Virus record (IMG/VR): IMGVR_UViG_3300025128_000111
Location: 1-40,836 of that record
Direction: 5' to 3' (one strand)
DNA from: a virus
DNA: 40,836 bases
The stretch's first letter is position 1. Every line of letters starts with the position of its first letter. The notes beneath the pieces are model-generated. The model made no database searches, was not told where the DNA came from, and was given only the letters and a program-made list of their open reading frames with translations. Position numbers and translations under genes: made by a program. Positions 1-40,661 of the stretch are shown piece after piece.

Positions 1-722
1 CTGCCAACTGTCTGTGCCAGGGTCCCTGTAGCTGCTGCCGCAGTGGACAACTTCATGCAGCTTGTGTCGTACTTTGGAATCAACCGATCCATGTTGGTTT
101 GGCTGACTATCGTGGCTGTGGTGTTGCTCACCGTCCAGCTTGTAGTTGTATTACCCACCGGATTCGACAAGACGTTCCATTCAGCCGTCACTGACTGCGG
201 GTCTTCCACAAAGATGTACATCGGGCCTGAACGGATGTCTGGGTTGATGTCATACCAGTCACTCAGTCCGTCCGACGTGGATGTATCGTCGTAAATTAGT
301 CGGAAGGCGTGTTCAAATACATCTTCGCGTAGCCTGGCTTCATCCAAACACTCGAACTTGAGAGACGGATCGTACCGATGTATCTGGTAATCCGTACCAC
401 TAGCCACTGTTTCAGTAAACGGAGGGTCAACAAACACAGTCCCGGTAGCTGAGATGAATTGGGTGATTCGTCGTACCTGATACTCCAGGTTGCTTCCCGC
501 TTCTGTAATGCGGACGTAGAAGTCGAGTATCTGATCATCACCAAAACGAGCTAACGATGTGTCTACTAACGTGGTGAACGTACCGGAACCGGCACTCGTA
601 GTCTCACTAGCCCAATAATCGTTGATGAACTTTGATAGCCCTACAAGTAGGTCACACCCTGAGATGGTGGTAGTTCCACTTGTACCTGTGGGGAATCCTA
701 TACCTACTGGTCCAGCTACCAT
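1..722 (-). CDS. Partial tail protein, second copy (N-terminal part)
   Basis: This is the first 240 or so codons of a tail structural protein. It starts at the ATG ending at 722 and runs off the left edge with no stop codon. It is a close homologue of the complete 456-residue gene at 36568-37938: both begin with a glycine-rich N-terminus, then share a conserved region around a DYQIHRYDPSLKFECLDEA-like segment. It has one extra codon relative to the other copy, near the ITEAGSNLEY segment. The start is preceded by the GGAG-type ribosome site also used by the other copy. It lies just downstream of the small fibre-partner gene. The function is inferred from position between fibre and propeller genes; no catalytic motif is visible. 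Confidence 0.8.
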   Translation of the reverse strand, partial: MVAGPVGIGFPTGTSGTTTISGCDLLVGLSKFINDYWASETTSAGSGTFTTLVDTSLARFGDDQILDFYVRITEAGSNLEYQVRRITQFISATGTVFVDPPFTETVASGTDYQIHRYDPSLKFECLDEARLREDVFEHAFRLIYDDTSTSDGLSDWYDINPDIRSGPMYIFVEDPQSVTAEWNVLSNPVGNTTTSWTVSNTTATIVSQTNMDRLIPKYDTSCMKLSTAAAATGTLAQTVG

Positions 723-735
723 GTCAGGCTCCTAT
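1..735. repeat. Imperfect long direct repeat, left copy A
   Basis: This segment matches about 37220-37952 in the same orientation with scattered substitutions and one 3-base indel. Homology stops abruptly at the last codons of the upstream small gene, just after the shared CAGGCTCCTATC on the plus strand. It is part of the terminal redundancy or duplication. Confidence 0.9.
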
Positions 736-1025
736 CTACCTTGTGCTGTTTTTTCAGCGTCTTCTAGATCGTCAAAATATTTTTTTAGCGTGGCATTTAC
801 AACGACCCAATCACTGCCGTCAAAGGAGTAACAAGCACCGTCTCGATAGCCAGAAGGGAGAGTCACTCCAGTCACAACCTCGTAATCTGCATCTGTAAAT
901 GCGAACGATTCTTCTGTCGCGCCGCCGCTAGTTCCGGATACTTTTGTCGCGTTCAACGTGACGGTTACAGAATCTTCCCAACTCATCCAAATAGAATTGT
1001 CTGCCTTTTTACGAAGTACAATCAT
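732..1025 (-). CDS. Small fibre-associated protein, variant 1
   Basis: A 97-residue protein follows the tail-fibre gene with an ATGA stop/start overlap. Its sequence is rich in Thr, Ser, Val and aromatics, with a D/E/K-rich C-terminal helix, and it has no signal peptide or membrane segment. At the equivalent place in the other copy (37948-38205) there is an 85-residue protein with no visible similarity. It therefore travels with the fibre C-terminus as one exchangeable unit. In many phages a small gene directly after a fibre gene encodes a fibre assembly chaperone or tip protein. That role is inferred here only from position and co-variation. Confidence 0.6.
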   Translation of the reverse strand: MIVLRKKADNSIWMSWEDSVTVTLNATKVSGTSGGATEESFAFTDADYEVVTGVTLPSGYRDGACYSFDGSDWVVVNATLKKYFDDLEDAEKTAQGR

Positions 1026-3622
1026 TGCAAGCTGCTCCCTGTCTGCGTGATAACCACATCTGACGCTGAAGTAGCAAACCCGATAAAGGTATTTGTGCCA
1101 ACTGTACTTGTAATTGCACCAGACGAATCTGCATACACCTTCGCTGCGGGGGTTAGACCTGATTGTTGAGTGTCTTTAGAGCTCAGCCACTTCACATCGA
1201 CTGATTGCCCATTAGTTACAGTGGACTGCGCAATACCAATAAATGTGGCGCTGTTATCAATTCCTGTTGTCGGCTGATACGAACCCGCTTGGAGATAATA
1301 CGGAGATGCCCACGACATACCACTCCACAAATACTTCTGATCGTCGGGACTATACGAAAGACCCCAATCGCCGTTGCTTGCCAGAGTAAAGTTCACTAAA
1401 CCCGTAGTACCAGATGGCAACACAGGTGAGGTTGGTGACGATGCCGCAATGTAATGACCTGACGAAGCGTCATACGCATACGAAAAGATACGTGGCCGCT
1501 GGTAGTCGTTATAGTCCTTTGACATAACAGTAACGGTAGATAATCCATCATCAAGCTGCTGTGTCAAAGGGTTATAGCCCTTATAAAAATATCCATCACC
1601 AGAGGTAAACGTCTTGAAACTCCACGTCATGGTCGTACCGCTTGTCCATGTACCTGCGGCTGTGGTGTTTACGTCTGGACTGTCGGTCCATATTGCAAAC
1701 CATTTTGAATCAGCGCTTCGGTAACACAACTGTAGATTGTTGTTAGAGAAATACGACGTTGACAATGTTTCGACACTACCCCAAGTAATTGAGCCACCTG
1801 CGACAGCACCAATCATATAATTAAGATTAGGAGAACCACTTGTTGCCGCTGCGTTTTGCCATATAAGTAAAATAATATTGTTGTCAGGATCGTATGAAGC
1901 CTTAATAGCCCCTTTTTGGTCGCTATATGATGTACTGTCCAAAGTAGACGTTGCAATGTTGCCGCCAATAGTGATTGTAGTACTACCCGCACTTCCGTTA
2001 TCAACGTCACAGAAATGAGTGCCTGTAGAATTCTGCCAAAAAATTAACGAGTACCCTAAGTCTGGAACATATAAGCCACACTTAGCGTATGTAGTAGAGC
2101 TTTGAGAAAACTGCGTGTTGTTACTCACAGTAAACGCAGAACCGTTACTAGATACTGCAAACAAATAACCATAGTTACTTGCATTGCCATTACTTAGCGC
2201 AACGTACCCAACTTCACCCGTATCGTCATACCACACTGTTGGATAACTAGACGCAGAGTTGTTGGCGTTATAGCTTGTATTGTTTGCAGCTATAGGGTTC
2301 GTTGTGGTTAACGCACCTGATGCAGTTGCAAACCCACTGATTGTTATACCACCGTAATACGGAGTACTTGGATACTGATAGTTCTGATTCATCCTGACGT
2401 GATGGTCGACAGACTTATCGTAGTAACTTGTACCTGCTGGAGTACTCAGGCCCCACATTGGTGAGGACCAGCCGTACCCACTGTTATTTGTTGTACCGTC
2501 ACCAGCAGCGTTAGCGACTAGCGTATTTGCTATTTGTGAGACTGTCCCTGCGGCATCTAATACCACTGCACGGCCAGCAGCGATACTACCGTTAGCAGTA
2601 AATGAGCCTTCTGCGCCACCCGCAGCAGCTACCCATGTAGGTGGATTTGCAGTTGCGTCAGTGCCATTACTCGTCAGTACCGTTCCCGCAGCGCCAAAAG
2701 CTACGCCTGTCAGCACATCGCTGTTGTTTGTGAACACTGCTTTGTTTGCCCCAACACCAAGAGCTGCATCTACTTCACTAAATGTAGGGGCACTTGTAGC
2801 TCCTGCGGATGTCAGTACCGTATTTGCTGCTCCTAGCGGAAGCTCGGTTACGTCACCGCTTGAATCGGAATAAAAGACTTTATTGTTTCCTGCATCCAGC
2901 ATTGTGGCTGCAATTTGTGAAATCGTGGCGCTCTTAGTGGTATTAGAATCATCTGTGTCTGAGATAAGAATCTTATCGTCACCAGCCAGGGCTGCGGCAG
3001 CGGATGAAGCTGCGTTAACGCTCACGTCTACAGCATCTGCGGATGCGACAATCGCATTACCATCGCCTACATCGAGTGTGACATCGCCAGTTAAGCCACC
3101 CCCGGTTAAACCATCACCAGCAGTTACGCCTGTAATGTCTCCTGTGGTACTAGAAACGGTCTGTGTGCCTGTATTATCCTGCCAGTGAAGGGCGTTTGTC
3201 GTGGTGTTGTACCACATATCGCCTGTTTGAAGGGTCGCTGGGTCGCCAGCAGTGCTCCTGGCCATGTTGAATCGGTCGTTAGCATCGACAGTAGTGCCCG
3301 TAAGGGGTGCGTCTCCAGCGTCTAATACGCCATAATCAGAGCCTAACTGTACGTCTCTGCTAGTAAATGTGAAGCCCGTAAGGGTTGGGATCATCGTGAC
3401 ACGTAGTAATGCCACTGCGTCTGTACCATCAAAGTACGCCTGAACGCGCCCTGATGCGTCTGTAATAAGAGGGTTGGCGATAGTCGTTACGCCGGTAAGC
3501 CCTGCATACATTGTCTGTGTAATGTTGGTTGTTGTACCTACCTGTGCCACCTGAATACTAGCCCCGGCTATCGGCACACCTGAGCTGTCGAGTACCTGGT
3601 ATCTCAGTGCTTGACGAACCAT
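1022..3622 (-). CDS. Tail fibre / receptor-binding protein, variant 1
   Basis: This 866-residue protein probably contacts the host surface. Residues 1-110 form a conserved head-proximal domain with a motif typical of phage fibre N-termini (YQVLDSSGVPIAGASIQV). A Gly/Thr/Asp-rich shaft follows, with a GDGLTGGGLTGDVTL-like repeat near residues 169-184. Residues 243-281 and 290-330 are two copies of a repeat ending in a TVLTSNG-type motif plus PTW/F. The C-terminal 500 residues are Tyr/Ser/Asn-rich, beta-propeller-like and aromatic, and are probably the receptor-binding part. The first 281 residues align without gaps to the fibre at 38209-40596 and the rest does not. The start is ATG at 3622 with the AAGGAG ribosome site. 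A terminator lies just upstream. Confidence 0.8.
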   Translation of the reverse strand: MVRQALRYQVLDSSGVPIAGASIQVAQVGTTTNITQTMYAGLTGVTTIANPLITDASGRVQAYFDGTDAVALLRVTMIPTLTGFTFTSRDVQLGSDYGVLDAGDAPLTGTTVDANDRFNMARSTAGDPATLQTGDMWYNTTTNALHWQDNTGTQTVSSTTGDITGVTAGDGLTGGGLTGDVTLDVGDGNAIVASADAVDVSVNAASSAAAALAGDDKILISDTDDSNTTKSATISQIAATMLDAGNNKVFYSDSSGDVTELPLGAANTVLTSAGATSAPTFSEVDAALGVGANKAVFTNNSDVLTGVAFGAAGTVLTSNGTDATANPPTWVAAAGGAEGSFTANGSIAAGRAVVLDAAGTVSQIANTLVANAAGDGTTNNSGYGWSSPMWGLSTPAGTSYYDKSVDHHVRMNQNYQYPSTPYYGGITISGFATASGALTTTNPIAANNTSYNANNSASSYPTVWYDDTGEVGYVALSNGNASNYGYLFAVSSNGSAFTVSNNTQFSQSSTTYAKCGLYVPDLGYSLIFWQNSTGTHFCDVDNGSAGSTTITIGGNIATSTLDSTSYSDQKGAIKASYDPDNNIILLIWQNAAATSGSPNLNYMIGAVAGGSITWGSVETLSTSYFSNNNLQLCYRSADSKWFAIWTDSPDVNTTAAGTWTSGTTMTWSFKTFTSGDGYFYKGYNPLTQQLDDGLSTVTVMSKDYNDYQRPRIFSYAYDASSGHYIAASSPTSPVLPSGTTGLVNFTLASNGDWGLSYSPDDQKYLWSGMSWASPYYLQAGSYQPTTGIDNSATFIGIAQSTVTNGQSVDVKWLSSKDTQQSGLTPAAKVYADSSGAITSTVGTNTFIGFATSASDVVITQTGSSLQ

Positions 3623-3862
3623 TATGTCTCCTTAGTTAAAAAACAGGTGGGCTACTCCCCAGTACTGCCCACCCATTCTTTATCTGCTTAACCCCAGTTA
3701 ACTGGTAGCAAGAACGCAATCATCTTGGTATTGTCCCCAGCAGAGATTCCTTTAATAGTGGAATCATTCTGCTCGAAACGACCAGACTCAACCGTTACAT
3801 ACTTCACGTCATTCGCAGCCATAGTGATAGCCAGGTTGCCCTGACCCTGTACCTGCGCTGGT
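2780..3862. repeat. Imperfect long direct repeat, left copy B
   Basis: This segment matches about 39754-40836 in the same orientation. It covers the 5' part of the fibre gene, the terminator and the 3' part of the decoration gene. Nucleotide substitutions are frequent in the fibre part and rarer in the decoration part. Confidence 0.9.
3637..3673 (-). terminator. Rho-independent terminator after decoration gene
   Basis: On the minus strand, GGTGGGC and GCCCACC form a 7-bp stem at 3667-3673 and 3646-3652, with an inner TACT/AGTA pairing. It is followed by TGTTTTTTAA. It sits between the decoration gene and the fibre gene and is repeated at the right end. It would separate highly expressed capsid genes from fibre genes, with readthrough or a separate promoter feeding the fibre. 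Confidence 0.85.
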
Positions 3863-4065
3863 GGTCTGTCACCAGCCGTGATTGTTACGTTGTTTGCACC
3901 ACCAGCAGAGTCAATGAATCCCAGAAGTACAGGTGAACCAACACCCGTCACATCCAAAGAGAATCCATCAGCACCGGTGGCAATCGCGGTCCAAGCCGCA
4001 ACTGGCAAATCTGCGCTTGCTTCATTAAGGGTTAGTTCTGTGAGTGTTACTGCTGTAACTGCCAT
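3688..4065 (-). CDS. Head decoration-type protein
   Basis: This 125-residue protein is rich in Ala, Thr, Val and Gly, with no charged patches and no membrane segment. It follows the major coat gene by 16 bases and has a strong ribosome site (AAAGGGGA). Size, composition and position right after the coat gene fit a capsid decoration or stabilising protein. The 3' part is present again at the right window edge (40662-40836). The call rests on context rather than a recognised motif. Confidence 0.6.
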   Translation of the reverse strand: MAVTAVTLTELTLNEASADLPVAAWTAIATGADGFSLDVTGVGSPVLLGFIDSAGGANNVTITAGDRPPAQVQGQGNLAITMAANDVKYVTVESGRFEQNDSTIKGISAGDNTKMIAFLLPVNWG

Positions 4066-4081
4066 TTTCTAATCCCCTTTC

Positions 4082-4933
4082 TTATTGCGAAATACAGTCG
4101 GCGTTAGCCAACACGTATGGTCGCGTAATTTTGTATCCGTACAAGTGCAAGCCTTTGATAGCGTCGGAGAAGGCTGACTCAGGTCGGTATCCTTCAACAC
4201 TATTAATCTGCTCTGCGTAGGTAACACCGTCCGAGTGACCGGCGATAACGTAGTTTCGTCCTGCACCAGCAGAAGGAAGGTTGTTAGATACAACAATCCT
4301 CATCCCGGCAGCAGCACCAATGATTCCGTTCTCTAGGTCTTCACGGTTTGCTTGTGTACCGTATGACACGAAGTTTGCGTTTTTCTGTAACCAACCGTGA
4401 TAGAACGGTGGAATTATGCACCAACGGCCAGCTCTTGGCACGTTGTTGGTGTCTAGTTTCACAGCTAAATCAACAAGGTTTTCATACGCATCCACGTTTG
4501 CACCATCACCAATAATCATGGCTCCCAGTGCGTTATTCACATCGCCTTGCGCTTGCATAGCGGCCAATACCGAAGTGTCGGCTGCATCTCCAAGCCCCCA
4601 GGCAGCGTCACGCATAGCTACGTCCATTAGCGCACCATCATCACGTACTTGTCTCGCGTCTACATCATCTACTTCAAATGCAAAGTACTTCGCCTGATCT
4701 ATCGTGAGCACCTGTTGAGAATCGTCGAGAGTCTCAGGTGTGATAGCAGTCGTGTTCTTTACATAATCAGCAATAGTTACACGCCCGATTGATGTAATTC
4801 GGACGGTATCCCCCATCTGGTCTATGTCACCTTCATAGTTTCGGTTACATAGGTTTACGGCAACGTGGGAATCGTTGAGATTCTCCAATAGAGTTGCAGC
4901 CCATAACGAAGGAATAAATCTGTCTACAGACAT
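4082..4933 (-). CDS. Major capsid protein, P22 coat-like
   Basis: This 283-residue protein is the likely shell subunit. The N-terminal pattern (FIPSLWAATLLENLNDSHVA), followed by a region with GDTVRITSIG and then YxKN-like residues, resembles the P22 gp5-type coat family found in many tailed phages. It lies between the scaffold gene (4953) and the decoration gene (4065), the canonical place. It is shorter than P22 coat (about 430 residues) but in the usual range for the smaller family members. A gap of 19 bases with a good ribosome site precedes the ATG. No cleavage motif is obvious, consistent with a separate scaffold. Confidence 0.82.
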   Translation of the reverse strand: MSVDRFIPSLWAATLLENLNDSHVAVNLCNRNYEGDIDQMGDTVRITSIGRVTIADYVKNTTAITPETLDDSQQVLTIDQAKYFAFEVDDVDARQVRDDGALMDVAMRDAAWGLGDAADTSVLAAMQAQGDVNNALGAMIIGDGANVDAYENLVDLAVKLDTNNVPRAGRWCIIPPFYHGWLQKNANFVSYGTQANREDLENGIIGAAAGMRIVVSNNLPSAGAGRNYVIAGHSDGVTYAEQINSVEGYRPESAFSDAIKGLHLYGYKITRPYVLANADCISQ

Positions 4934-4952
4934 GATCTCTCCTAGCTAATAG

Positions 4953-5765
4953 TTAGCCACCTCGGAGAGCTTTATTTCGGACTTCCTTTGGAATCTTCAT
5001 AATCTCTTGTGGTGACATATTTTTAAGTTTTTCTAATGTCAGCACCTGAGAACTTGATGAGGCGCGAGATGGCGTTTCGCCAGCCGCTTGTTTTCGTTGA
5101 GCTAATCGGGAATCGGGAGTGTCGTTGGCAGTCATATTATCTATATACTCCTTAGCGTTACTTACCGCTTCCTCTAATGATTTACCGGGAGTGTCCCAAA
5201 TAGGCATTGCTGCCACTTCTTCTGCTGGGATTCCTTTGGCTTCGGCATAGCCGTACACACGATTTGATGCTTCTGCTGCGCGTCTTGCACCTTCATCTAT
5301 TTGTTCATCTGATACTTGACCAGATGCTTCCGGTGAGGCTCCATTCAATTCCTGGCGTAACTCCTGCTTGGCTTGCGAAAGCGCACGGGTATATGAGTCT
5401 TCTGTCCGTTGGTCGGCAAGAGCACTCTTTCCTTCTTCTGACATCACATCGGATAAACCAATGTCCATCAGACTGCGTATTCCGGCAATAGAAGCCTGTG
5501 TTGTCTCCAGGTCCTGCTTGGTAGCAAACTCCTCAAGGCGATTTGTGAGGCGGTCTAAAGAACTGGTTGCGCGGTTAGTAACGTGTTTACTGTCACTAAA
5601 GTCTTTCCTCAGTTGGTCTAGCTGCGACTGTAATGTCTCGATTTGGTTCGACGGGTCAATCTCTGTCTGTACGTCCACGTCCTCGCTCAGAGCCGTAGCT
5701 TCGGAGTCTTCGGCGAGATCCGCTTCTGTAGTCCACTCGGTCTGAGCATCTACTTCTTGCGTCAT
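4953..5765 (-). CDS. Capsid scaffold protein
   Basis: This 270-residue, strongly acidic protein has a long predicted coiled coil at about residues 40-95 (QIETLQSQLDQLRKDF and the heptads after it). A charged, disordered Ala/Ser-rich middle follows, then a basic C-terminal tail ending in NKALRGG. Acidic N-terminus, coiled coil and basic coat-binding tail are the usual scaffold design, and it directly precedes the coat gene. A good sigma70-type promoter lies just upstream, so the scaffold, coat and decoration genes may form a separately boosted transcript ending at the terminator at 3637-3673. Confidence 0.75.
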   Translation of the reverse strand: MTQEVDAQTEWTTEADLAEDSEATALSEDVDVQTEIDPSNQIETLQSQLDQLRKDFSDSKHVTNRATSSLDRLTNRLEEFATKQDLETTQASIAGIRSLMDIGLSDVMSEEGKSALADQRTEDSYTRALSQAKQELRQELNGASPEASGQVSDEQIDEGARRAAEASNRVYGYAEAKGIPAEEVAAMPIWDTPGKSLEEAVSNAKEYIDNMTANDTPDSRLAQRKQAAGETPSRASSSSQVLTLEKLKNMSPQEIMKIPKEVRNKALRGG

Positions 5766-5774
5766 TGTTCCTCC

Positions 5775-5792
5775 TTAGAACATCTGTGCTAA
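5775..5792. promoter_or_regulatory. 18-bp imperfect dyad, possible operator
   Basis: TTAGAACATCTGTGCTAA has 7 of 9 symmetric pairs (pattern TTAGNACANNTGTNCTAA). It lies directly downstream of the -10 box of the scaffold promoter, where a bound protein would block transcription. A near copy lies at 31215-31232. It loosely resembles Gram-positive LexA-type boxes. The binding protein is unknown. Confidence 0.45.
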
Positions 5793-5793
5793 T

Positions 5794-5823
5794 AGTGTAC
5801 CCAATTATTTGTGAAATGGTCAA
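5794..5823 (-). promoter_or_regulatory. Sigma70-type promoter for scaffold-coat genes
   Basis: On the minus strand TTGACC is followed after 18 bases by TACACT. It reads toward the scaffold gene, whose ATG is about 30 bases from the -10. The 73-base gap between this gene and the giant upstream gene is the only real break in this part of the operon. Confidence 0.7.
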
Positions 5824-5838
5824 CAAAAAGTAAATATA

Positions 5839-8800
5839 CTATCTACTAATAAGTGATCTGCCTTGTGCAGTTCTTGGTGTGTACCCTCGCGTGAGTACAA
5901 GAGCTATATCTAGTTGAGGATCTCTGCGCCGCATTAGTACACGTTTTGCGTCTTTACGACTGTCGATGGCCCGCTTGATACCTTCTAGCCGTCTTTTCGT
6001 GCGTATGTCGGGTGTTTGGCGTATCAATCGCTCTAGTTCGCTATAAGTAGAAACAGGTCGGCCAGCTAATACGGACACGCGGTCCGCCACTTCCTGAAAT
6101 GCCTCATCTGCCGCATCCCAATACCCTGACGCATTGACGTAGTTTTTATAGCGAATAAACTCATGGATTTCCTCTGGATGACGGGTGTAATCGGTCTCTA
6201 GATATCCGCTAAGAAAGTTATTCTGTTCGTCAGTGAACGTCGTGCGGAGTTCCATTTGTTTTTGATCCAGGATGTCCCAATCAAGGTGGTTGCCAAATAA
6301 CTTCACTTCCGGGTCGTCATATAACTCAAACCAAGCGTCGAGCGCCTGGAGGTTAGGGTCCTCCGACAACGCATAGTCAAGACCGTGCATTTCGTCGATT
6401 ACCCGCTTTTGTGCAGCAAACGTGCGTTGCAAATCGCCGTAAATCTTACTAAGTTGATCTCTGGGTATCTGGCCGGACTCTACCGCGACCGCCAAGTTTC
6501 GCTCCATTTGGAACAATTCAGCCGCTAGTTCTTCTTTTTTAATCTGCGCTTGTGCGCCCACATCACCCGAAGCTGCTCGCTTTTCTAACCTGGCATCAAT
6601 AGCTTCGACAATTTCAGGATACTTTTGCTCGACTTCAGACTTCTGAATACGGGTTAATTGCTTCCAATCTTTGCCGTATATTTCCTGCGCCCGTATGTCC
6701 CTGCGCTCGTAGGGTGTTTGTGGGGTCGCTTTCAAACCGACGACGTTCGATATTAAGCCAAGTCCTAGCGGATTTCCATAAGTGTCCACATCAGTGATGT
6801 TGAAATTGGGAGTGCCAGTAACGTCTTCAATAGTGTCTTGAAGCGTAAATGGGAGTTTCTGCTGCATCAGGTTAATAACACTCAGACCAATCTCCCTCGG
6901 ATCGTCTGACCTTAGCTTCACTGGTTCGCCCATAAACGTCTCTTCTGTGATCACATCAAACACCGTGCCGAGTGCAGGACTCGCCTTTGTTCTGAAGAGA
7001 CGCACAGCACCTGAAGATGGTCCTTCTGTGACCATCGTGCCGAACAACCCTGCAAGCGAATCCCACGTACCGAACAAGGACACGTCCTGCCCTGCTGCGT
7101 TGATACGCATGAAGTTGGAGTTGTAGTGGGGATTTCCCTCAGCGTCGTACCGGACGGGACTCCAATCAGTATCATAGTCCTGCATCTCATTCATCCAGTA
7201 CGTCGTGAGGCCCATCAGCGCCATAGTCCTCATCAGGTAATCACGCGCTAACCGACCATCAGCCCCCGGTTGAGACGCTGCTTTCTGCAACAAAGACAAC
7301 TGCGAATTGAAGTATCGTGGTGCAAAGAAGACCGCTGACGACAAGGTGCTAGGATTACCGGCCTTAAAACCTGTTGCTTCGTTAATTGACTGAATAATAC
7401 TTTCTGACTCACCCAAACCCTTTGCGCGAGCTAACGCCCCTTTTCCGAGTGCTCGACCGATCAGGTTACTATTGTTTTTCGCGTTCTTGTACAACATAAT
7501 CCGCAGTGCGTTACCAGTACGGCTGAAGTGATGGTTTGCTAGTTTTACCGGCTTACCTATGAGGGGTGCTTTCGTCAGACCGCCAGGGAACAAGAACTCA
7601 CCAACATCGTCCAGTGCGGCAAAGTAGCCGCCCTCCTTGATGAAATCGTCAATCGTTCCTTTGTTTTTGACTACCCAACGGTTGTAAAAACGGGGGCTGA
7701 ACAGTGCTGACGTACTCATCGCCATCATCTTGGCTGCACCAATCGGGTCCACACCAGCCGCTAACAGACCCTGAATACCGATAGCTGAGAGGTCGAGAGT
7801 TGCCATAAGCGGACGTGAGAAGTCATTGAACTTCCGCATAATGCCACCAATACCCTGACGATCAGCCATCTCGAAGAACTTATTCATCTCGTCAGCAAAC
7901 TCAGCATCATAGAATCTGCCGCCAGAAATGAAATTGTTTAGTTTTGCTTGGCGACCAGAAATCATTTCCGCCGCTTGTGGTGCTCCGGCACTCTGCTGTG
8001 CGTATTCGTATGCTGTGCGGGCAGTGTCTCGTTTTGCTTTTGCTTCTTCCAAATTCTCCAGCAGGTCCCTGACGCGGGTTTGAGCGGGTATGTTGTCCGC
8101 TAATACTTTTTGCACACTACCTAATTCGTCTTCTATTTCTAGTATTCGTCCATCCAGTTGGTTCATCCGCAGCGTGTGGGCGTTTGTCTCCCGTAAGAAC
8201 TCACGCGCATCTTGTGACTGGTTGGTTGCCAGATCGAACGCTGCTCGCTTCGTCTGAGACATATTCGCAATTCGCTGCGTTAGGCTTTTGTCACCCCGTA
8301 GGTATTCTGTATCAGCTCGCCTGATCAACTCCATGACTTTGTGTATGTCGTTGTCGTCCCCTACCTCGCGCAGTTTTGTGGAGAAATCCTTCAACTTTGC
8401 GAAATACTTCCGACCTTCAAGACCAGCTTCTCGCATGTCAGTGGTCATGTTATCTATCGCATCAGCTAGTTTGACCGCGTGATCGCGTGTACCAGCTACC
8501 AGTTTCGGCATTTGCGTGTTGAGTTTTGCCATTGCGCGGGCTTCGCGGGTTCTAAGTGTGCTCACCGCTTGCGCCCTGATTCCCGACAATGCCTTAGTAA
8601 TTTTAATTACGTCCCCTTGTGCAGCTAGGTACGATTTTCTCGCACCAGCCCACGTCCCTTTAGACATCAGGCGGTCTAGTAATGTCATTTGCCCGATACC
8701 TGGTACGGGTCGCGTCAAAGATTCTTGCAGCCATTTTGCGTTGATTCGATCAACACCAGCTTTTAGTCGTAATCCCATAACCTGAGTCACGTCACCAAGG

Positions 8801-22278: not shown

Positions 22279-22472
22279 AACCTCTCCAACTCTTCTTGCA
22301 CCCAATCCTCAAGCAGACAAGTGCAGTCATATACATGCAGTGAGTGAAAATCACACCACCAGTCCTCGCACATTTCGCACTGCCTGTCCCACCACTCCAA
22401 TACTCGGTGCTCGCCAGTGGGTTCTTCGCAATCCTCACCACATATCACCTCACTGCACGTCACTTTGTTCAT
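22275..22472 (-). CDS. Cys-rich zinc-finger-like protein (65 aa)
   Basis: The ATG at 22472 overlaps the methyltransferase stop (ATGA). About nine Cys and two His are arranged as CSEVICGEDC, then CEMCEDWWCDFH and a final CxC, enough for two zinc sites. It is very acidic. Its place between the methyltransferase and PAPS-like genes suggests an adaptor for that module. No family is recognised. Confidence 0.7.
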   Translation of the reverse strand: MNKVTCSEVICGEDCEEPTGEHRVLEWWDRQCEMCEDWWCDFHSLHVYDCTCLLEDWVQEELERL

Positions 22473-23278
22473 TGAGTGAGTGCCTCCCAACATTCGTGCC
22501 AGGCCAATGCTGCGGTGTCAGGGACGACTCCGTTTCCAATAATGCGGATACGGTCGTTGCGACCGATGTCCAGCCAATGCCCCATCCCATCATCCACTCG
22601 CAGAAATTCGGATTTAAGTAGCGATGGTTGTAGTCCTCCCGCCACACCCACCCATCTTGGGTCCGTGGGTCCGTATGCGAATCTCGACGGGCGCTCCATT
22701 TCGATTGCGGATCTACCTGACGAGCCAACGATGCCGATGGTTTCTTCTTTGCATCCGTTGCCAGAGGCGTAGCCCAAGATAAAAAGCCGTTGTCGTCTAT
22801 GCTGTGCCCCTGTTTCCTCCGCCGTAGCGAGTGTCGCCGCAACTGAGTAACCCATGCCTTGAAGACTGAGGGCGACCTCACTGAATCCGAGTGACAAATG
22901 ATGGGCGACGTTTTCAAAGAAAACCCAAAGAGGCTGAGCTGCTTTGATTCCTGCTTCGATGTAGGGCCAGAGATGCCTGGGATCGGCGGCTCCCAATTTA
23001 GGCCCGACTGCTGAGAACGGCTGACATGGGTAGCCACCCACGATTCCTTCCACTTGTCCACGCCACGCTGCGAAGTCGAAGGTTTTAAGGTCAGACCAGA
23101 TAGGAGCATCAGCCAACGTTCCTTGCGTAATATTGCTGACCAACGTCGCGGCGGCGGTGACTTCTCTCTCAACGTAACAGACTGGGACAGTAGTTCCGCC
23201 TGAGCCTCGGTCAACCCCGGTGTCGAGTCCTCCTGCACCGCTGCAGATGCTGAGGTAGGGATGTAGATCCACACTCAC
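22469..23278 (-). CDS. C5-cytosine DNA methyltransferase
   Basis: This 269-residue protein shows the ordered motifs of the family. Motif I is SICSGAGGLDTG (10-21), motif IV is GGYPCQPFS (81-89, catalytic Cys85), and motif VI is FENV (121-124). Motif VIII is QHRRQRLF (159-166) and motif X is GNGVVP near 250. It methylates C5 of cytosine in a short DNA site. The target-recognition region is only about 70 residues, so the enzyme is shorter than usual. A GTG at 23278 with GGAGG four bases upstream is the best start; GTG at 23272 is an alternative. It leads a tightly coupled gene set. Confidence 0.9.
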   Translation of the reverse strand: MSVDLHPYLSICSGAGGLDTGVDRGSGGTTVPVCYVEREVTAAATLVSNITQGTLADAPIWSDLKTFDFAAWRGQVEGIVGGYPCQPFSAVGPKLGAADPRHLWPYIEAGIKAAQPLWVFFENVAHHLSLGFSEVALSLQGMGYSVAATLATAEETGAQHRRQRLFILGYASGNGCKEETIGIVGSSGRSAIEMERPSRFAYGPTDPRWVGVAGGLQPSLLKSEFLRVDDGMGHWLDIGRNDRIRIIGNGVVPDTAALAWHECWEALTQ

Positions 23279-27656: not shown

Positions 27657-28341
27657 GAACGCAGAGGGCTTGGTGTACGACATAGCGGGAGAGAGAAAGC
27701 GCATTGAGGGCATTAGCTCACGGGATATAATCGATTATCCAGGGGAAATCGGATATGAGTTTTCCCGTGACCCGATGCGATTGATGCTGTCATTTGATTG
27801 GGAGTGGCACAAGCTACCTTCCAAGAGCCAAGTGCAGTTTATGTTGGAGCCGACAAAAGATGAGTTCGGTGTGAAAACAGAGCAACCGCCATTCGTGGCA
27901 CACAGGCACGTTGATGTGGACCCAAACTTAGGGAAAAACCACTACTCACATCTTGCCGTGTTTCCATACTACGCAGCACTCACCATTTATGACTGTTGCG
28001 ATGTAAAGGAACGTGAAGTACGAGTGGATCGGTTCGGTAATCCGATGCAGGACTTACTGGACGCAATGGATGATCCGTCAGTGAACTCTCATCGGTACAC
28101 TAATCCGTTTGCCCACTGGTATCAGGCAACGGTTTGGAGTCGGTACTTTCTGGGGCGCAACGATCTCTACAGCAGGAAACTCGCTGAAAGAGTGTTCGAG
28201 ATGGACCAGAAGTTCGGTGTACGGATACCGAATGTGACGAGACCGGGGCAGAACAAGTACACGAAACTGCTCAAAGCCACTGACGTGATGAACGCTCGCA
28301 CTGCTATTAGGGAGGCGCATCATGCAATCGCACGAATGTAG
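27604..28341 (+). CDS. Unknown protein in immunity/integration region (245 aa)
   Basis: The ATG at 27604 overlaps the repressor end by 53 bases; an ATG at 27586 is an alternative. Sequence segments such as VAHRHVDVDPNLGKNHYSHL and NPFAHWYQATVWSRYFLGRN are aromatic and His-rich, with no HExxH (so not an ImmA-type protease) and no HTH. The end overlaps the integrase start by 20 bases. Being co-transcribed with the repressor and integrase, it could be expressed in lysogeny. Confidence 0.7.
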   Translation: MEVTTLREYNHKPVVFPENAEGLVYDIAGERKRIEGISSRDIIDYPGEIGYEFSRDPMRLMLSFDWEWHKLPSKSQVQFMLEPTKDEFGVKTEQPPFVAHRHVDVDPNLGKNHYSHLAVFPYYAALTIYDCCDVKEREVRVDRFGNPMQDLLDAMDDPSVNSHRYTNPFAHWYQATVWSRYFLGRNDLYSRKLAERVFEMDQKFGVRIPNVTRPGQNKYTKLLKATDVMNARTAIREAHHAIARM

Positions 28342-29641
28342 CGGCCCTGATTGCCGACGTACTGTGTATGAAGACAGTTTCATGTGGCGTAATCGACAGC
28401 GAGTAGGGAGCAAAATTTATCGCATTTATGCGTGCTCTGAAGAATGTTTCAACTACTTTACGGAGTATCAGAAGGTACTTCAACAAGCTAACACAGCATC
28501 TCGGGCTGGCGATGAACTGTCTGGAAGGTTTGCTGACTTCGTTCCACTCTTCCTGCGTGAGTACGCCAAGCTGCGTAGGCGACGGACGACCGGAGTAACG
28601 GTGTCTGCAATGGAACTTCAGTTTCGCAACGACCGTGCAAATTGGTGGGTCGGTAAACTCGGTAACAAATACTTTGAAGAGATCGATTGGGACATGATCG
28701 ACAAGATCTTGTTGGAACAGTTCGAGACGCGCTGGAAGGCCGGGACATGCAAAAAGTATTCAGATACGCTGTCGCTTATTTTTCAAGCGGCCAGTCAGGA
28801 ACGAATATTTCGCCCGAGTCCCTACGCATCTGACCCATTGAAAGCACAGAACCCAGGTAGAGGCCACCACTTCGGTGAGGCTAACACTCATGTGCTTCAT
28901 CGACTCAGCCGAGAAGAGCTAGAGTTGGTTGGCACGATTGGAGCAGGAGTACCGAACTGGTCCACATGGTCCGCTCACGTCGCTACTCAAATAGCGTGGC
29001 GAGCTGGTTTGCGACGCGGTGAGGTGATGGGTCTGCAATGGAAGGATGTCACCGACACCGAAGTTGCTGTCACACAGTCACTGGTGTGGACTGGCCCTGC
29101 CAAATTTGAGATCACAGAGGGTTCTAAGGGCGGTCTGAAGGAGCGTCGAGCGCCGTTTCTGGTGATGTCCGAATGGGGCGAACACCCAGACACAATGAAG
29201 CGGCTGTTGGCTACACACAGAGCCAAGATAGGTGAACTGCAACTGGCTATCGGTGGTGCATGGACTAGCGCACGAATCAACGAGCCGGAAGCATACTTGT
29301 TCCCGGATACTCGGGGCGATTTACAGCGACCTGAGTTTTGTTCTAAGCTCTTCATGCAATACTGCAAGCAGTTAGGGATAGTGCGTATTCGTGAGTCACA
29401 ACGACGCGAAGCAGGAAAATCCGAGAAGAAAGAGTATCCACCCAGGTTCCACGACCTACGGCATACCTATGGCTTTCTACAAGCCCACAGAGGATTACCT
29501 ATCGCAACCGTCCGTGACCTCATGGGACACGCTGATATCCAGACAACTAACTTGTATTTCGATAATGACTCGGACAAAGCAGCCGCTGATCATTACGAAG
29601 AGCAGGAAAGGAGGCGAGTGCTACCCTCAAATGCACTTTAG
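28322..29641 (+). CDS. int: Tyrosine integrase with N-terminal zinc finger
   Basis: This 439-residue site-specific recombinase has catalytic Arg231 (AGLRRGE), Lys in the beta-hairpin near 269-273, His377 and Arg380 (HDLRH), His403 (MGHADIQTTN) and nucleophile Tyr412. The core-binding domain lies at about 65-180. The first 45 residues are unusual: Cys6 and Cys11, then Cys38 and Cys42, form a small zinc-finger-like module of treble-clef type. It should catalyse integration and excision at the attachment site 0.4 kb downstream. Confidence 0.93.
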   Translation: MQSHECSGPDCRRTVYEDSFMWRNRQRVGSKIYRIYACSEECFNYFTEYQKVLQQANTASRAGDELSGRFADFVPLFLREYAKLRRRRTTGVTVSAMELQFRNDRANWWVGKLGNKYFEEIDWDMIDKILLEQFETRWKAGTCKKYSDTLSLIFQAASQERIFRPSPYASDPLKAQNPGRGHHFGEANTHVLHRLSREELELVGTIGAGVPNWSTWSAHVATQIAWRAGLRRGEVMGLQWKDVTDTEVAVTQSLVWTGPAKFEITEGSKGGLKERRAPFLVMSEWGEHPDTMKRLLATHRAKIGELQLAIGGAWTSARINEPEAYLFPDTRGDLQRPEFCSKLFMQYCKQLGIVRIRESQRREAGKSEKKEYPPRFHDLRHTYGFLQAHRGLPIATVRDLMGHADIQTTNLYFDNDSDKAAADHYEEQERRRVLPSNAL

Positions 29642-30017: not shown

Positions 30018-30092
30018 GCGGGAGTAGCTCAGTGGTAGAGCGCGATCTTCCCAAGATCGATGTCGCGAGTTCGATCCTCGTCTTCCGCTCCA
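30018..30092 (+). tRNA. tRNA-Gly (anticodon CCC)
   Basis: A full 75-nt cloverleaf: acceptor GCGGGAG/CTTCCGC with one GU pair, and a D-arm GCTC...GAGC. The anticodon arm is CGATC-TTCCCAA-GATCG with anticodon CCC. The T-arm is GCGAG-TTCGATC-CTCGT, and CCA is encoded. It lies 2 bases from the stop of a convergent small gene. A tRNA next to an integrase is a typical attachment site, so this may be a host-derived attP core that keeps the tRNA whole. Confidence 0.93.
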
Positions 30093-30468: not shown

Positions 30469-31101
30469 TTACTCCATATCCTCGACCTTACCTTGAAGGT
30501 CGTCGATTACATCATTGAGGATGCTTTGCCCTGCATCTATTAGATCGTTGGCTTTCTTCTGGCGCTCATCGAACTCAGCCTGGTTAACAGATATTGAGTC
30601 TTCATTGCCATCATCCAGAAACTTGAACGCATCGTTCAATCCCTTTGACCTAGAGAAGTAGGGGTTGGCTGCTACCGTACAGCCCCAGTGTAAGTGGGGT
30701 CCTGTGCTCTGGCCGGTACTACCAATTACGCCTAAGAGGTCTCCTGCTTTGACGGATTCAGAGCGGCGGACACTTGGCGCGGCATATAGATGAGCGTATA
30801 AAGTGTAGCCAATAAGGTTCCCATCGCTATCATTGTGCCGCAGGAAAGTAGCATTACCAAAAATAGCCGCCACATTTTCCCGCCACGCGACTGTTTCTTC
30901 GGTCGTGAATACATCGTTAACTACTCCATCCATCGGTGCTAACACCGGTGTGCCTTCAGCGGCTGCAATATCTACACCCGAATGTCCCTTGCCCTGACTT
31001 AGTTCGGGCCTGACAACTCCGTAGAATGAAGTGACGCGACCACTCACAGGCAAACCGTTGTAGGTGGTTCCGTTTAGACTTCCTGCGAACTTTAGTCTCA
31101 T
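30469..31101 (-). CDS. M23 peptidase endolysin
   Basis: This 210-residue LysM-free peptidase has the M23 zinc motifs GHSGVDI (His40, Asp44), LYAHL (His104) and GPHLHWG (His136, His138). It cleaves peptidoglycan peptide cross-links. It lacks a signal peptide, so release depends on the holin. The C-terminal 60 residues are acidic and coiled, probably a wall-binding or oligomer part. Confidence 0.88.
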   Translation of the reverse strand: MRLKFAGSLNGTTYNGLPVSGRVTSFYGVVRPELSQGKGHSGVDIAAAEGTPVLAPMDGVVNDVFTTEETVAWRENVAAIFGNATFLRHNDSDGNLIGYTLYAHLYAAPSVRRSESVKAGDLLGVIGSTGQSTGPHLHWGCTVAANPYFSRSKGLNDAFKFLDDGNEDSISVNQAEFDERQKKANDLIDAGQSILNDVIDDLQGKVEDME

Positions 31102-34466: not shown

Positions 34467-36568
34467 TATGCGTACACCTTTCCGGTATCCCATGCACTCA
34501 CGTCGTAAACCAAATCGTCACCCAGATCCGTGAGTTGGTTAATCTGGGCAAACGACACTGTATATACCTGTAGGTCACGACCATCCTTCGCCATCACGCC
34601 AGCGGCGCGTAGGTTGAGCATCTTGACTGAATAGGTCCGATTAAAAATGTCGGTGAGGGTGATGAGTCTGTCTGAAGCGTTAAATAAAAAGTTCTCGCTG
34701 ACCTTTGCTCCGTGCCGGGAATTACCGCCACCCTTCAGTGGGAGATCGTCACCAACCAAGATGTCGCACTCGAACAAACGGCGGCGCTTCGGAGCAATCG
34801 TGGTGTCCAGTACCACTGAGTCAATCGACGCGACGTTCTTTTCTGTCGCACGAGTCATTTTCAGGATGTACCGAATCTTGTTGAACCTGATTTCTGTAGT
34901 GATACGGAACGACGCATTATCGTCTGTCGCTATACCAATGGACGTACCAGTAATGTCACCTTTACGCACGTTTTCAAGGAACGTATCCGCATAGTTCGTT
35001 GTATCCGTCACATAGCTAATCGTTGTAGGAGACGATTCATTGGCAGTGGTCGATAGCACACGCGCACCGTTCAATAACTTCTGAGATGCTGCTTGCCCGA
35101 CATCCACCCAGGGACCCACCACATACTGACCCTGCGTATAATCATCATCAAAGGCGTAGTCTGGATCGGTGTCAGGTAACATGCCTACCTTTGGAAGCCT
35201 GAACCCACCAAGATACCCGTATGACGGAGCGCCTATACCTGTCGCATCAGTGCCAAAGAGTAGGTAGGGGTTAGTGTCTGTGATTAATCCTGCACCAAAT
35301 ACGCCGATACCTTTAATAGCTGGGTACTGTATATATGTGAGAGTGTGGAAATTAGTTGTACCTGGTAGCCCCTTCATGATGTAGCTCACGCCTCGGTCGT
35401 TTACAAGCGAGAAATACAGCCACTCAGAGTCGCCACTAATCCCGGTAATACGTCCGTCTAACTCTTCTGAACCAGCCTGAGCCGCACTAGGAGGCCATAC
35501 AATCGTCTGTGTATTGTTGTTTGGGTCTATCTGTAAGATGCGTCTGCCGTATTGGACGTATATATTGCCGTCACTCCACACATACGGACGCGACCCGTTA
35601 CCGGCTCGTGAGTACCACGGCTCTGCATTACCTGTGTTATCCCAGACGCTGAGAGAATCAGATCCGTCAGTGCGCCAGATTGAATTTACTTTGAACACAT
35701 ATATAAAGTTGCCACCGATGATCATCCCAGCGACGGTGTCGTTGAGCGAGTCGCCTAACGCAATGGCCGCTGACCACGCAGCACCGCCGTTTTGACCGTT
35801 GACGTTAGATCGCACTTCACCAGCCCCGTTTACACCCCAAAGATACGGACTGCCCGATGTCTCTCCACGAATGGCAAAAAACAACATTTCTGCGTTTGAT
35901 AAATTGCTTTGGGTCCAAGTCACTCCATCATCGGTAGAGTAGTAGTACTTAATAGCTGCACCAGTAGACGTAACCATCCCAGCCACAAACAACGTGCCGT
36001 TAAAGTCGATGATGTCTGTCATTGCAAAACCGGACGCGAAACTGAAATTAGCCTGGGTCCACGTCGGTGTAGCTCCACCAGTAAAGTACCAAAGATACTG
36101 TCCACCAAACGCCCACACATACCCTGTGCTTGGTGCGTAATAAAACTTCACCTCTGGATTCGGATCTCGTGTATAGCCTGTGGAGGATGTGAAAAACAAT
36201 GAGGACGCAAGCGACGTCTGATGATACTGGACATCAGGACCGGCATAGAGCTTTCCTGCGTAGCTTGCATCCACACCACGAGTAAACGAATACTTGGTTA
36301 GGGACCCGGCTTCTTCATACTCGACTGAGTTAAACGCACAGCCACCCTGCCAGTTCTCATAGGCCACTGGAACTTCTACCTCGATAGGCACAGAAGCGTA
36401 ATCGAATGACGCGGTATTGAATTGTGGTGTGACCTGCTCAGATAGTGACGCACGGTAGCCGAGTATGCCGTCAATATCGTTCAGCATGAACCCTAGCTTC
36501 TGATTATCTACCTCCAGGTAAATGTCGTAAGGGGTATCTACCCGTGAGCCGGTACTGATGAGTGCCAT
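34466..36568 (-). CDS. Beta-propeller tail protein (700 aa)
   Basis: This large protein has repeated short segments like STGYVWAFGGQYLWYFTGGA and YYSTDDGVTWTQSN, which are BNR/Asp-box or propeller blades. The SxDDGxTW motif is the Asp-box. It ends in a mixed alpha/beta part. It could be a tail hub, a receptor-binding or glycan-binding protein. The start is in a TAATG overlap with the 456-residue gene. Confidence 0.65.
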   Translation of the reverse strand: MALISTGSRVDTPYDIYLEVDNQKLGFMLNDIDGILGYRASLSEQVTPQFNTASFDYASVPIEVEVPVAYENWQGGCAFNSVEYEEAGSLTKYSFTRGVDASYAGKLYAGPDVQYHQTSLASSLFFTSSTGYTRDPNPEVKFYYAPSTGYVWAFGGQYLWYFTGGATPTWTQANFSFASGFAMTDIIDFNGTLFVAGMVTSTGAAIKYYYSTDDGVTWTQSNLSNAEMLFFAIRGETSGSPYLWGVNGAGEVRSNVNGQNGGAAWSAAIALGDSLNDTVAGMIIGGNFIYVFKVNSIWRTDGSDSLSVWDNTGNAEPWYSRAGNGSRPYVWSDGNIYVQYGRRILQIDPNNNTQTIVWPPSAAQAGSEELDGRITGISGDSEWLYFSLVNDRGVSYIMKGLPGTTNFHTLTYIQYPAIKGIGVFGAGLITDTNPYLLFGTDATGIGAPSYGYLGGFRLPKVGMLPDTDPDYAFDDDYTQGQYVVGPWVDVGQAASQKLLNGARVLSTTANESSPTTISYVTDTTNYADTFLENVRKGDITGTSIGIATDDNASFRITTEIRFNKIRYILKMTRATEKNVASIDSVVLDTTIAPKRRRLFECDILVGDDLPLKGGGNSRHGAKVSENFLFNASDRLITLTDIFNRTYSVKMLNLRAAGVMAKDGRDLQVYTVSFAQINQLTDLGDDLVYDVSAWDTGKVYA

Positions 36569-37938
36569 TATTGATAAGGACTACGGATCGTGGGTCGTTG
36601 CGGTATGACGTATCCCCACGCTTTCGTCGCATCCTTCTTTCTGTCTATGATCTGGATTCTTCTGGCAATGGTTTCAAACTCTTCCGTAGTCAGCCCTTCA
36701 CGCTCGAACAGGATTTCTGCTGCGGCTCCGTACAGTACCTGTGCTGACCCCTGGTCAAGCTCCATCGTGTTCGTACATTGGGTCGCTGGGACACTCCCAA
36801 GCTCTGACAGATACTGTCTCCCGACCATGCGGATCTGCCGTCCATTGGTGGGAACCCAAGAGAGCTGAACCTTCTGTGTAGTGGCATCACGTCTGATGAG
36901 GTGTGCTTCGCGCCACGGGTACACGTCCTGTATAAGATTGGACTCCCCGTAGTAGAGCCATGCGCGGTTAAAGAATGCGGTCGCACCTGTTGATGTCCCT
37001 CCTGCCACAATTAAGGTCGCTGTCAACGTGGCGGCGTTCGTCGGAGAGATGTTCTTCTCTACCGTAAGCAGCTCCCAACCTGTACCTCCATGCAACGAAG
37101 AAGCAGTATCACCATCATCGTCAGTGAGCTGAATTTTGACCCCAGAGGTGTCACGAGTATTCACCCACATTCCGAACGTCATGCGCCGTCCTGCGGCTTG
37201 TGAGGCTGTTATGGACATGCTGCCGACTGTCTGTGCCAGAGTCCCTGTAGTCGCTGCCGCAGTAGCCAATTTCATGCAGCTTGTGTCGTACTTTGGAATC
37301 AAGCGATCCATGTTGGTTTGGCTGACTATCGTGGCTGTGGTGTTGCTCACCGTCCAGCTTGTAGTTGTGTCACCCACCGGATTAGACAAGACGTTCCATT
37401 CAGCCGTCACTGACTGCGGGTCTTCCACAAATATGTACATCGGGCCTGAACGAATGTCTGGGTTGATGTCATACCAGTCACTCAGTCCGTCTGACGTGGA
37501 TGTATCGTCGTAAATTAAGCGGAAGGCGTGTTCAAATACATCTTCGCGTAGCCTGGCTTCATCCAAACACTCGAACTTGAGCGACGGATCGTACCGATGT
37601 ATCTGGTAATCCGTACCACTAGCCACTGTCTCGCTAAATGGCGGGTCTACAAACACAGTCCCGGTAGCAGACACAAACTGAGTAATGCGCCTTACGTCGT
37701 ATTGCAGGTTCCCTGCACCTGTGATTCTGACATAGAAATCAATGATCTGATCGTCACCAAAACGTGACAACGATGTGTCTACGAGCGTATTGAACGTACC
37801 TGACCCTGCACTCGTGGTGGTACTAGCCCAATAATCGTTGATGAACTTACTAAATCCTACTAATAAATCACACCCTGAAATAGTAGTAGTCCCACTAGAG
37901 CTAGTGGGAAATCCTATACCTACTGGTCCCATTACCAT
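36568..37938 (-). CDS. Tail protein (456 aa), complete copy
   Basis: This 456-residue protein follows the fibre partner gene with ATG at 37938. The N-terminal 180 residues are neck/tail-like (DYQIHRYDPSLKFECLDEAR). Residues about 180-340 form a carbohydrate-binding-like beta sandwich (ATTGTLAQTVGSMSITASQ; GRRMTFGMWVNTRDTSGVKI). The end is helical (AAEILFEREGLTTEEFETIA). It is probably a tail-tip, adaptor or fibre-connecting protein. Its N-terminal half is repeated at 1-722. Confidence 0.7.
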   Translation of the reverse strand: MVMGPVGIGFPTSSSGTTTISGCDLLVGFSKFINDYWASTTTSAGSGTFNTLVDTSLSRFGDDQIIDFYVRITGAGNLQYDVRRITQFVSATGTVFVDPPFSETVASGTDYQIHRYDPSLKFECLDEARLREDVFEHAFRLIYDDTSTSDGLSDWYDINPDIRSGPMYIFVEDPQSVTAEWNVLSNPVGDTTTSWTVSNTTATIVSQTNMDRLIPKYDTSCMKLATAAATTGTLAQTVGSMSITASQAAGRRMTFGMWVNTRDTSGVKIQLTDDDGDTASSLHGGTGWELLTVEKNISPTNAATLTATLIVAGGTSTGATAFFNRAWLYYGESNLIQDVYPWREAHLIRRDATTQKVQLSWVPTNGRQIRMVGRQYLSELGSVPATQCTNTMELDQGSAQVLYGAAAEILFEREGLTTEEFETIARRIQIIDRKKDATKAWGYVIPQRPTIRSPYQ

Positions 37939-37952
37939 GTCAGGCTCCTATC
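37220..37952. repeat. Imperfect long direct repeat, right copy A
   Basis: Same orientation as 1-735, with scattered substitutions and one codon indel. Confidence 0.9.
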
Positions 37953-38205
37953 GTCGCTCGTTATTTCCGTATGTATCAGAATTAAAATACGGGCGGTCGT
38001 GTACCGTGGCGAGCAAGTATTCCTCAGCCGTCGCCGTTATAAGCTCCCATTCATCAGTCGTGATGTCGGTGCGCTCCCATGACTGCGACGCATCAAAATA
38101 ATCCGTTTCCGTTACTGACAATTTTGTATCGTCGAGCGCGACCGTATCCGTATCTTTGAAAATCCATCGGATTTCACGCGATACCTTAGATCTAATTAGT
38201 TTCAT
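37948..38205 (-). CDS. Small fibre-associated protein, variant 2
   Basis: This 85-residue acidic protein sits exactly where variant 1 (97 residues) sits in the left copy, but shares no visible sequence with it. It has DTVALDDTKLSVTETDYFDA and a helical TAEEYLLATV end. It starts 4 bases after the fibre stop. Co-variation with the fibre C-terminus suggests a cognate partner, such as a chaperone or tip protein. Confidence 0.6.
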   Translation of the reverse strand: MKLIRSKVSREIRWIFKDTDTVALDDTKLSVTETDYFDASQSWERTDITTDEWELITATAEEYLLATVHDRPYFNSDTYGNNERR

Positions 38206-38208
38206 TGG

Positions 38209-40596: not shown

Positions 40597-40610
40597 TATG
40601 TCTCCTTAGT

Positions 40611-40647
40611 TAAAAAACAGGTGGGCTACTCCCCAGTACTGCCCACC
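40611..40647 (-). terminator. Rho-independent terminator, right copy
   Basis: Same stem (GGTGGGC/GCCCACC) and T-tract as 3637-3673. Confidence 0.85.
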
Positions 40648-40661
40648 CGTTCTTTATCTGC

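Follow-up and report, generated by a model that had tools for sequence, protein, structure and literature searches.

The fibre locus of the IMG/VR virus record IMGVR_UViG_3300025128_000111 raises the question whether the C-terminus of a phage fibre and the small gene directly behind it are exchanged between genomes as a single functional unit. The record (40,836 bases, classed linear; referred to in its full length as 'the window') carries two versions of this locus, with the fibre, small and next genes on the minus strand throughout. Allele 1 comprises a fibre gene of 866 amino acids with a shaft and a putative receptor-binding C-terminus (1022-3622; an open reading frame that was aligned with 13 other fibres), a small partner gene of 97 amino acids (732-1025) overlapping the fibre stop by 4 bases, and a partial next gene (3-722), which an earlier note on this DNA had taken for a tail gene. 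Allele 2 comprises a fibre gene of 795 amino acids (38209-40596), a small gene of 85 amino acids (37948-38205) and the complete next gene of 456 amino acids (36568-37938), the latter being 93% identical to its counterpart in allele 1 over 240 amino acids, while the small proteins of the two alleles give no alignment (BLASTP E 0.11). We observe that fibre tip and small gene are inherited together, that they have repeatedly crossed between lineages, that the right border of the transferred DNA is confined to a few bases, and that the left borders lie in the last shaft repeats. The locus probably represents a receptor-binding cassette, in which a tip (a propeller lectin set into a small trimerisation-like domain) and a dedicated chaperone gene are exchanged together by recombination.

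Relatives were collected by scanning a viral collection with the shaft, the next gene, two fibre tips, the capsid, a gene of a second lineage, a small gene and the border sequence. The IMG/VR relatives carry one locus each, in the order capsid, decoration, fibre, small gene and next gene, and were labelled as clades A, B, B' and C according to how their genes are ordered and how similar their capsids are: the window itself falls in clade A (capsid 83-100% identical to that of the window), clades B and B' (52-61%) have the fibre N-terminus cut down to about one or two shaft repeats, and clade C consists of L122 (51%). The small gene stands directly behind the fibre gene in every clade, the spacing ranging from a 4-base overlap to a 22-base gap (23 of 23 loci checked). 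The shafts of 11 sequences are 78-96% identical to that of allele 1, and tips of different types share 23-37%; a conserved shaft thus bears unrelated tips at one locus, as in exchange modules of the phage Mu S/U type.

The pairing of tip and small gene was assessed for all 300 pairs among 25 non-redundant loci, the tip being taken as whatever follows the final shaft repeat of the fibre. Six near-identical loci (L005, L007, L015, L017, L035 and L136) were left out of the counts, and the frameshifted small gene of L137 entered the comparison as a truncated reading; L146, likewise outside the counts, fits afterwards (tip and small protein each 79% identical to those of allele 1). Tip and small-protein similarity are correlated with r = 0.93, a value as high being reached in none of 9999 permutations, and at a threshold of at least 50% identity the pairs divide into 27 alike in both, none in the tip only, two in the small protein only (W2/L010, 51%; L010/L013, 53%) and 271 in neither. 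On these counts the partner is inherited with the C-terminus, as in a Mu S/U-type module. The proposal of the earlier note that the two are exchanged as one unit thus finds support, and the pattern that it named as contradicting such exchange, in which one of the two is kept while the other is unrelated, did not turn up among these pairs. Correlations of either tip or small protein with the capsid, decoration and next (tail) gene products are confined to the range from -0.09 to -0.02.

Exchange between lineages is evident from the 159 cross-clade pairs, 16 of which are at least 50% identical in both tip and small protein and none in one of them only. For example, allele 1 and L135 share 86% of the tip and 98% of the small protein at 53% capsid identity, L003 and L122 share 83% and 90% at 52%, and L004 (clade A) and L140 (clade B) share 94% and 100%, likewise at 52%, the stretch common to the latter two extending over 2021 bases at 95.6%. 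Overall, six cassette types were each found both in clade A and outside it, in another one or two lineages (B/B' or C) with capsids about half identical, so that independent swaps with the same borders, which the earlier note had named as support for the unit, do exist. The individual scans agree: the small-gene scan yielded five loci from four distinct phages, each with the matching tip, and the tip scan four loci, each with the matching small gene. When each of the ten cassette types is represented by one member (45 pairs), the correlation is still r = 0.48, which 29 of 9999 permutations reach; hence, tip and partner also diverge together in the long term.

The two versions in the window, the 'copies' of the earlier note, are not two loci but strain alleles of a single one, placed where the ends of a circular map overlap. 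Bases 1-3862 match bases 37220-40836, that is, the overlap takes in both ends of the record. At the assembly joint (3736-3862), the record's final 127 bases (40710-40836) are repeated with zero mismatches, and the match ends at that point; an exact terminal repeat at the record's first bases amounts to only 5 bases. A usual maximum k-mer size in SPAdes is 127. Moreover, L007, a contig from another metagenome, spans the joint and connects base 40836 to base 3863 without a break: its bases 1-1153 equal window bases 5015-3863 (1153 of 1153 identical), and its bases 1154-6718 correspond to window bases 40836-35272 (5549 of 5565 identical). The terminal repeat and the read-through in L007 together imply a self-overlapping circular map of about 37 kb. 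A true duplication, providing one phage with two receptor specificities, would account for both copies sitting in one record, but the overlap of the record ends, the 127-base repeat, the contig L007 and the single fibre locus in each of nine relatives' records searched (where second matches are repeats within the same fibre or a split alignment) exclude it for practical purposes. Seeming duplications at the ends of viral contigs should therefore be viewed with caution, since they can be strain alleles.

Where, then, does the exchanged DNA begin and end? The fibres of the two window alleles align closely until about residue 281 and then diverge, and DNA similarity resumes at base 736, which leaves both alleles with a common TAG stop and next-gene ribosome site. 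In allele 1, the conserved shaft (residues 1-280; 2783-3622) is 81% identical to allele 2 and 78-96% identical to 10 aligned relatives. It is followed by an extra shaft repeat of some 49 residues (about 281-330; 2633-2782), which is missing from allele 2, and by the exchangeable C-terminus (residues 331-866; 1025-2632). Residue 281 thus marks the missing repeat of allele 2, and a fixed left border at this position was rejected: the end of homology proposed there holds for the two window alleles, but the edge usually lies at residues 305-328 elsewhere, that is, in 11 of 13 cross-lineage alignments, so that left crossovers between lineages cluster in the extra repeat. The two outliers are residue 294 (L034/L139, where the match is in two pieces) and residue 275 (L009/L143, where the shaft is one repeat shorter). 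The 13 alignments reuse loci and represent six cassette types, and they do not therefore correspond to 13 independent events; for a fourteenth pair tried, allele 2 and L138, a DNA match was not found.

The right edge is confined much more tightly, lying between -4 and +6 bases from the ATG of the next gene in 12 of the 13 alignments; in the remaining one (L003/L122), the match continues for 524 bases, the next genes there being related. The right border TAGGAGCCTGACATGGT, comprising the small-gene stop, the ribosome site and the next-gene start, lies at 718-734 in allele 1 and recurs with the same sequence at 37934-37950 in allele 2 (15-base core 37936-37950). The 15-base junction TAGGAGCCTGACATG has two exact occurrences in the window, one per allele, compared with a mean of 0.07 and at most 1 in shuffled sequences even with up to two mismatches counted. 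A scan with the 17-base border returned 26 stretches, of which 22 belong to this locus and four (L119, L127, L130 and L133) are unrelated matches that can arise by chance in a large collection. At the right joint, 23 of the 25 loci listed carry TAGGAGCC and 20 carry TAGGAGCCTGACATGG, and the sequence is kept although the next gene differs between clades A and B and has diverged in clade C. The earlier note put this border at the final small-gene codon, which is close, stop and ribosome site being shared, but not exact everywhere. In the three loci of clade B' (L141, L143 and L144) the sequence changes past TAGGAGCC, 4 bases ahead of the start codon, while L004 and L140 share a ribosome site unlike all others and the change falls at the start codon itself; this ribosome site evidently travelled with the cassette. 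Finally, L011 combines a small gene of type T4 with the last residues and stop typical of T1, which by its sequence points to a crossover inside the last codons of the small gene.

Within the window's own population, the latest event was considerably larger than the cassette. The alleles are 97-100% identical upstream of about fibre codon 14 (base 3581/3582), 57-92% identical per 60 bases through the shaft and without any identity in the cassette; in the next gene, identity is 70-82% in the first part and 88-100% (about 95%) past about codon 104 (base ~411). Accordingly, 3 mismatches fall in 3582-3862 versus 24 in 3461-3581, and mismatches are dense from base 411 upward. Over shaft codons 120-235, allele 1 is closer to L003 (95% identity) than to allele 2 (72%), whereas for the stretch upstream (up to 420 bases) allele 2 is the nearer of the two (99%, compared with 77% for L003). 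Hence, the latest event replaced bases of about 411-3581 (allele 1 side, minus strand, as delimited by the mismatch map), and the alignments indicate that it used decoration and next-gene DNA as arms. Shaft DNA also acts as an arm, since L034 and L021 are 96% identical in shaft codons 120-235 beneath different cassettes. The suggestion that shaft and tail gene provide the recombination arms is thus borne out by the shaft of L034/L021 and by the next gene of the window alleles, but the exchange in the window swallowed nearly the whole shaft along with ~104 codons of the next gene, and in swaps between lineages a homologous right arm is absent beyond ~8-18 common bases. One might consider that the stop/ribosome-site/start sequence TAGGAGCC(TGACATGGT) is a fixed recombination joint, conserved since cassettes join there, which passes receptor cassettes between lineages with unrelated next genes without a homologous right arm; we regard this idea as doubtful.

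What the cassette encodes can be approached by structure prediction. The AlphaFold2 model of the allele 1 tip is a β-propeller (mean predicted local distance difference test score, pLDDT, 69.6), with the propeller lectin domain spanning fibre residues ~369-786 (model residues 39-456; 1265-2518, minus strand). When aligned with VIA-align, the model matches the lectin BP39L with a Z-score of 28.6 over 327 residues and the PLL/PHL lectins of Photorhabdus with Z-scores of 26-28, the best Foldseek E-value being 7.9e-7, which assigns the tip, on a model of this pLDDT, to the PLL/BP39L propeller fold. Lectins of the BP39L/PLL type have seven blades. The tip shares the fold of these lectins (Z 26-28.6) but only 7-10% of their sequence, and here the propeller is inserted in a phage fibre, where it is flanked by two conserved stretches. 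The C-terminal flank shows a weak match to the neck fibre of cyanophage A-1(L) (E 0.0035) and, in L135, to Phage_cement_2 (E 0.012, below Pfam's cut-off). On the strength of the modelled fold, the tip may bind a cell-surface sugar. For the gene preceding the fibre in clade B (L135:3500-3913), matches were obtained to Podophage GP4 fibre I (PF23140, E 4.2e-26) and to a PHROG head protein, so that the fibre may belong to the head or neck rather than to the tail. L135 and L136 (2788500220_000004 and _000003) come from the same IMG dataset and have nearly identical fibre regions.

The small proteins form one very divergent family, in which M1 is the sole invariant residue among 24 aligned members. 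Their genes are under purifying selection: the ratio of nonsynonymous to synonymous substitution rates (dN/dS) is 0.00-0.31 in 16 of 16 pairs, and 0.12-0.31 for the allele 1 gene against five relatives. The model of the allele 1 protein (pLDDT 94.7) has six strands, a hairpin and a C-terminal helix. Foldseek returned no match in the PDB at E ≤0.001 (E ≥0.75 among the 50 matches listed, which do not include 5yvq_B), and when the model was realigned to 950 chains, the top chain was 5yvq_B from the tail fibre/chaperone complex of Mu, weakly (Z 3.1, root-mean-square deviation 2.2, 52 residues), although the identity of this chain is a telling one. No further tail-fibre chaperones were listed for the model in the structural library, an absence which excludes nothing. 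In a viral library, the first match is an unnamed 96-residue protein (E 6.1e-5, template modelling score 0.69), and a tail fibre assembly protein ranks fourth (E 0.52). None of the 24 family members matches Caudo_TAP, Phage_tail_APC, DUF4376 or equivalents at E 0.1 in Pfam, PHROGs and NCBIfam, the few weak profile matches being to unrelated or unnamed families, and no sequence homology was found to Mu U and U' or to the Phage_tail_APC protein of L144. In clade B', a second short fibre (220-234 amino acids) with the N-terminal motif of the first stands between the cassette and the next gene (L141:2107-3179, L143:4887-5991 and L144:4861-5933). The gene behind it belongs to Pfam Phage_tail_APC (E 2.5e-17 to 4.8e-19), that is, a known chaperone family occupies the position equivalent to that of the small gene.

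Fibre tip and small gene appear to work only as a matched set. The position of the small protein, its co-variation with the tip and its weak structural likeness suggest that it serves to fold or cap the tip with which it is paired, to the exclusion of others, and the need for a match may be what holds the two together. In the mechanism that we propose, the tip would attach to a surface glycan and the small protein would be required to fold or cap the cognate tip; a tip without its partner would lead to dead particles, so that only exchanges carrying both would survive. Within a lineage, ordinary or phage-recombinase recombination would take place in shaft and next-gene DNA, and between lineages exchange on the right would rely on the short common sequence that runs from the stop through the ribosome site to the start codon. 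Several observations weigh against a dedicated chaperone in a unit exchanged as a whole. By sequence, the small family matches none of the known chaperone families, its likeness in structure to the Mu chaperone is weak (Z 3.1, with other entries up to 2.8), and the tip model is of middling confidence. For W1/L020 and W1/L135, the small gene and the 3' end of the tip are more alike than the remaining tip, with synonymous divergence (dS) of 0.01 and 0.06 for the small gene versus 0.21 and 0.36 for the tip remainder, which implies that internal recombination of cassettes also occurs. The small gene of L016 encodes just 69 amino acids, and that of L137 (5640-5855) is frameshifted in an otherwise intact cassette, reflecting either an assembly error or real loss. 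In addition, no host name was obtained, the next-gene and capsid alignments being without a relative in the bacterial and archaeal genome collection. Finally, tip and partner are adjacent, and plain linkage accounts for much of their co-transfer.

Taken to its limit, this last point becomes an explanation in its own right: the small gene, functionally unrelated to the tip, would simply ride between it and the first conserved DNA, namely the ribosome site of the next gene. With tip and small gene at most 22 bases apart in all 23 loci checked and no DNA common between them where a crossover could part them, linkage may well contribute. As the whole explanation we consider it improbable, since a small gene of one divergent family is retained at 25 of 25 loci compared, purifying selection acts on every pair, and identities still correlate between cassette types despite a long time for recombination. 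A somewhat more serious contender, albeit still unlikely, is that the small protein remains a permanent part of the tip, as an adhesin or capping subunit touching the receptor in a two-protein receptor-binding head. Some known phages do possess a separate tip adhesin (T2-type gp38), the 97-residue fold is compact and confidently modelled, and co-variation with the tip also extends across cassette types. A surface in contact with the receptor would not, however, be expected to be the more conserved partner, as the small gene usually is within a type (L018/L141, 91% versus 76% for the tip); moreover, the top structural neighbour is, if weakly, a chaperone, and the gene behind the second fibre of clade B' belongs to a known chaperone family. 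Strict matching of tip and small protein would likewise be predicted if the latter acted on the infected host, by superinfection exclusion or by masking the receptor recognised by the tip. The small gene is, however, co-directional with the fibre gene and often overlaps it, as structural partners do, and its weak structural neighbours include fibre chaperones, which leaves a host-directed role very improbable.

The principle of such exchange is already known from Mu and from the Alteromonas phages A5, V22 and P24. Mu and T4-type phages exchange the C-terminus of a fibre along with the respective chaperone. In the invertible G segment of Mu (S/U and S'/U'), the fibre N-terminus is constant while the variable C-terminus and the downstream assembly gene are swapped en bloc, as here; in the Mu record, the G boundary lies within S, and S' and U' follow behind in inverted orientation. 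Mu differs, however, in that the window lacks a second inverted copy, each record has one locus, and the exchange is between genomes: no inverted pair of at least 40 bases, and hence no inverted copy next to an invertase as in the G segment, was found in the window. According to the available parts of the respective report, A5, V22 and P24 are distantly related marine phages with a fibre and its cognate chaperone in common, within a shared block of about ten genes at 45-96% similarity, the chaperone being a DUF4376 protein with a helical body and a β-hairpin (PMC10579305). Compared with the module so described, the unit here consists of one C-terminus and one small β-rich protein, and its right border varies by a few bases only. 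Metaviromic islands have been described in which the fibre C-terminus varies between similar co-occurring marine phages and fibre assembly proteins are among the island genes (PMC3909814); tip/partner pairing, borders and cross-lineage cassettes, as seen here, are not described in the passages of that paper available to us. The accessible text on the tail fibre loci of carotovoricin describes cross-species exchange in Pectobacterium through recombination in conserved flanks (PMC13195805), but those are tailocin loci with DNA inversion as a second mechanism, whereas the window has no invertible copy.

No paper on the present fibre/partner family was found in the open-licence literature, mostly judged by titles or abstract openings, and the fibre, next and small genes gave zero protein matches among 50,697 records of isolated phages, in which the capsid alone has matches, at less than 60% identity. 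As far as these searches go, what is new is the fibre/partner family with its propeller lectin tip, together with the near-fixed right joint and the number of times that cassettes were independently exchanged without the pairing being broken. The locus provides a natural set of about ten matched tip/partner pairs (tips 23-37% identical between types, partners up to 100% identical within a type across lineages), which lend themselves to separate tests of partner specificity, receptor specificity and exchange borders. It also suggests a common pool of host-range cassettes across phage lineages whose capsid proteins are otherwise only ~50% identical.

As for the phage itself, its capsid gene is of the P22-like/PHROG 267 type, and genes for the large terminase and an integrase are present in the window. 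Like its relatives, the phage is uncultured, and its origin is probably marine, judging from a 94-base DNA match to a Pelagibacter phage, which is the sole named pointer in this direction. A tyrosine integrase gene (28322-29641, plus strand) is followed by a tRNA-Gly (ccc) gene (30018-30092); the phage is probably temperate, and the tRNA gene may mark its attachment site. The window furthermore encodes a C-5 cytosine DNA methylase (22472-23278; PF00145, E 6.9e-26) and a Peptidase_M23 protein (30472-31101; E 3.1e-20), possibly a lysis or virion-associated peptidase.

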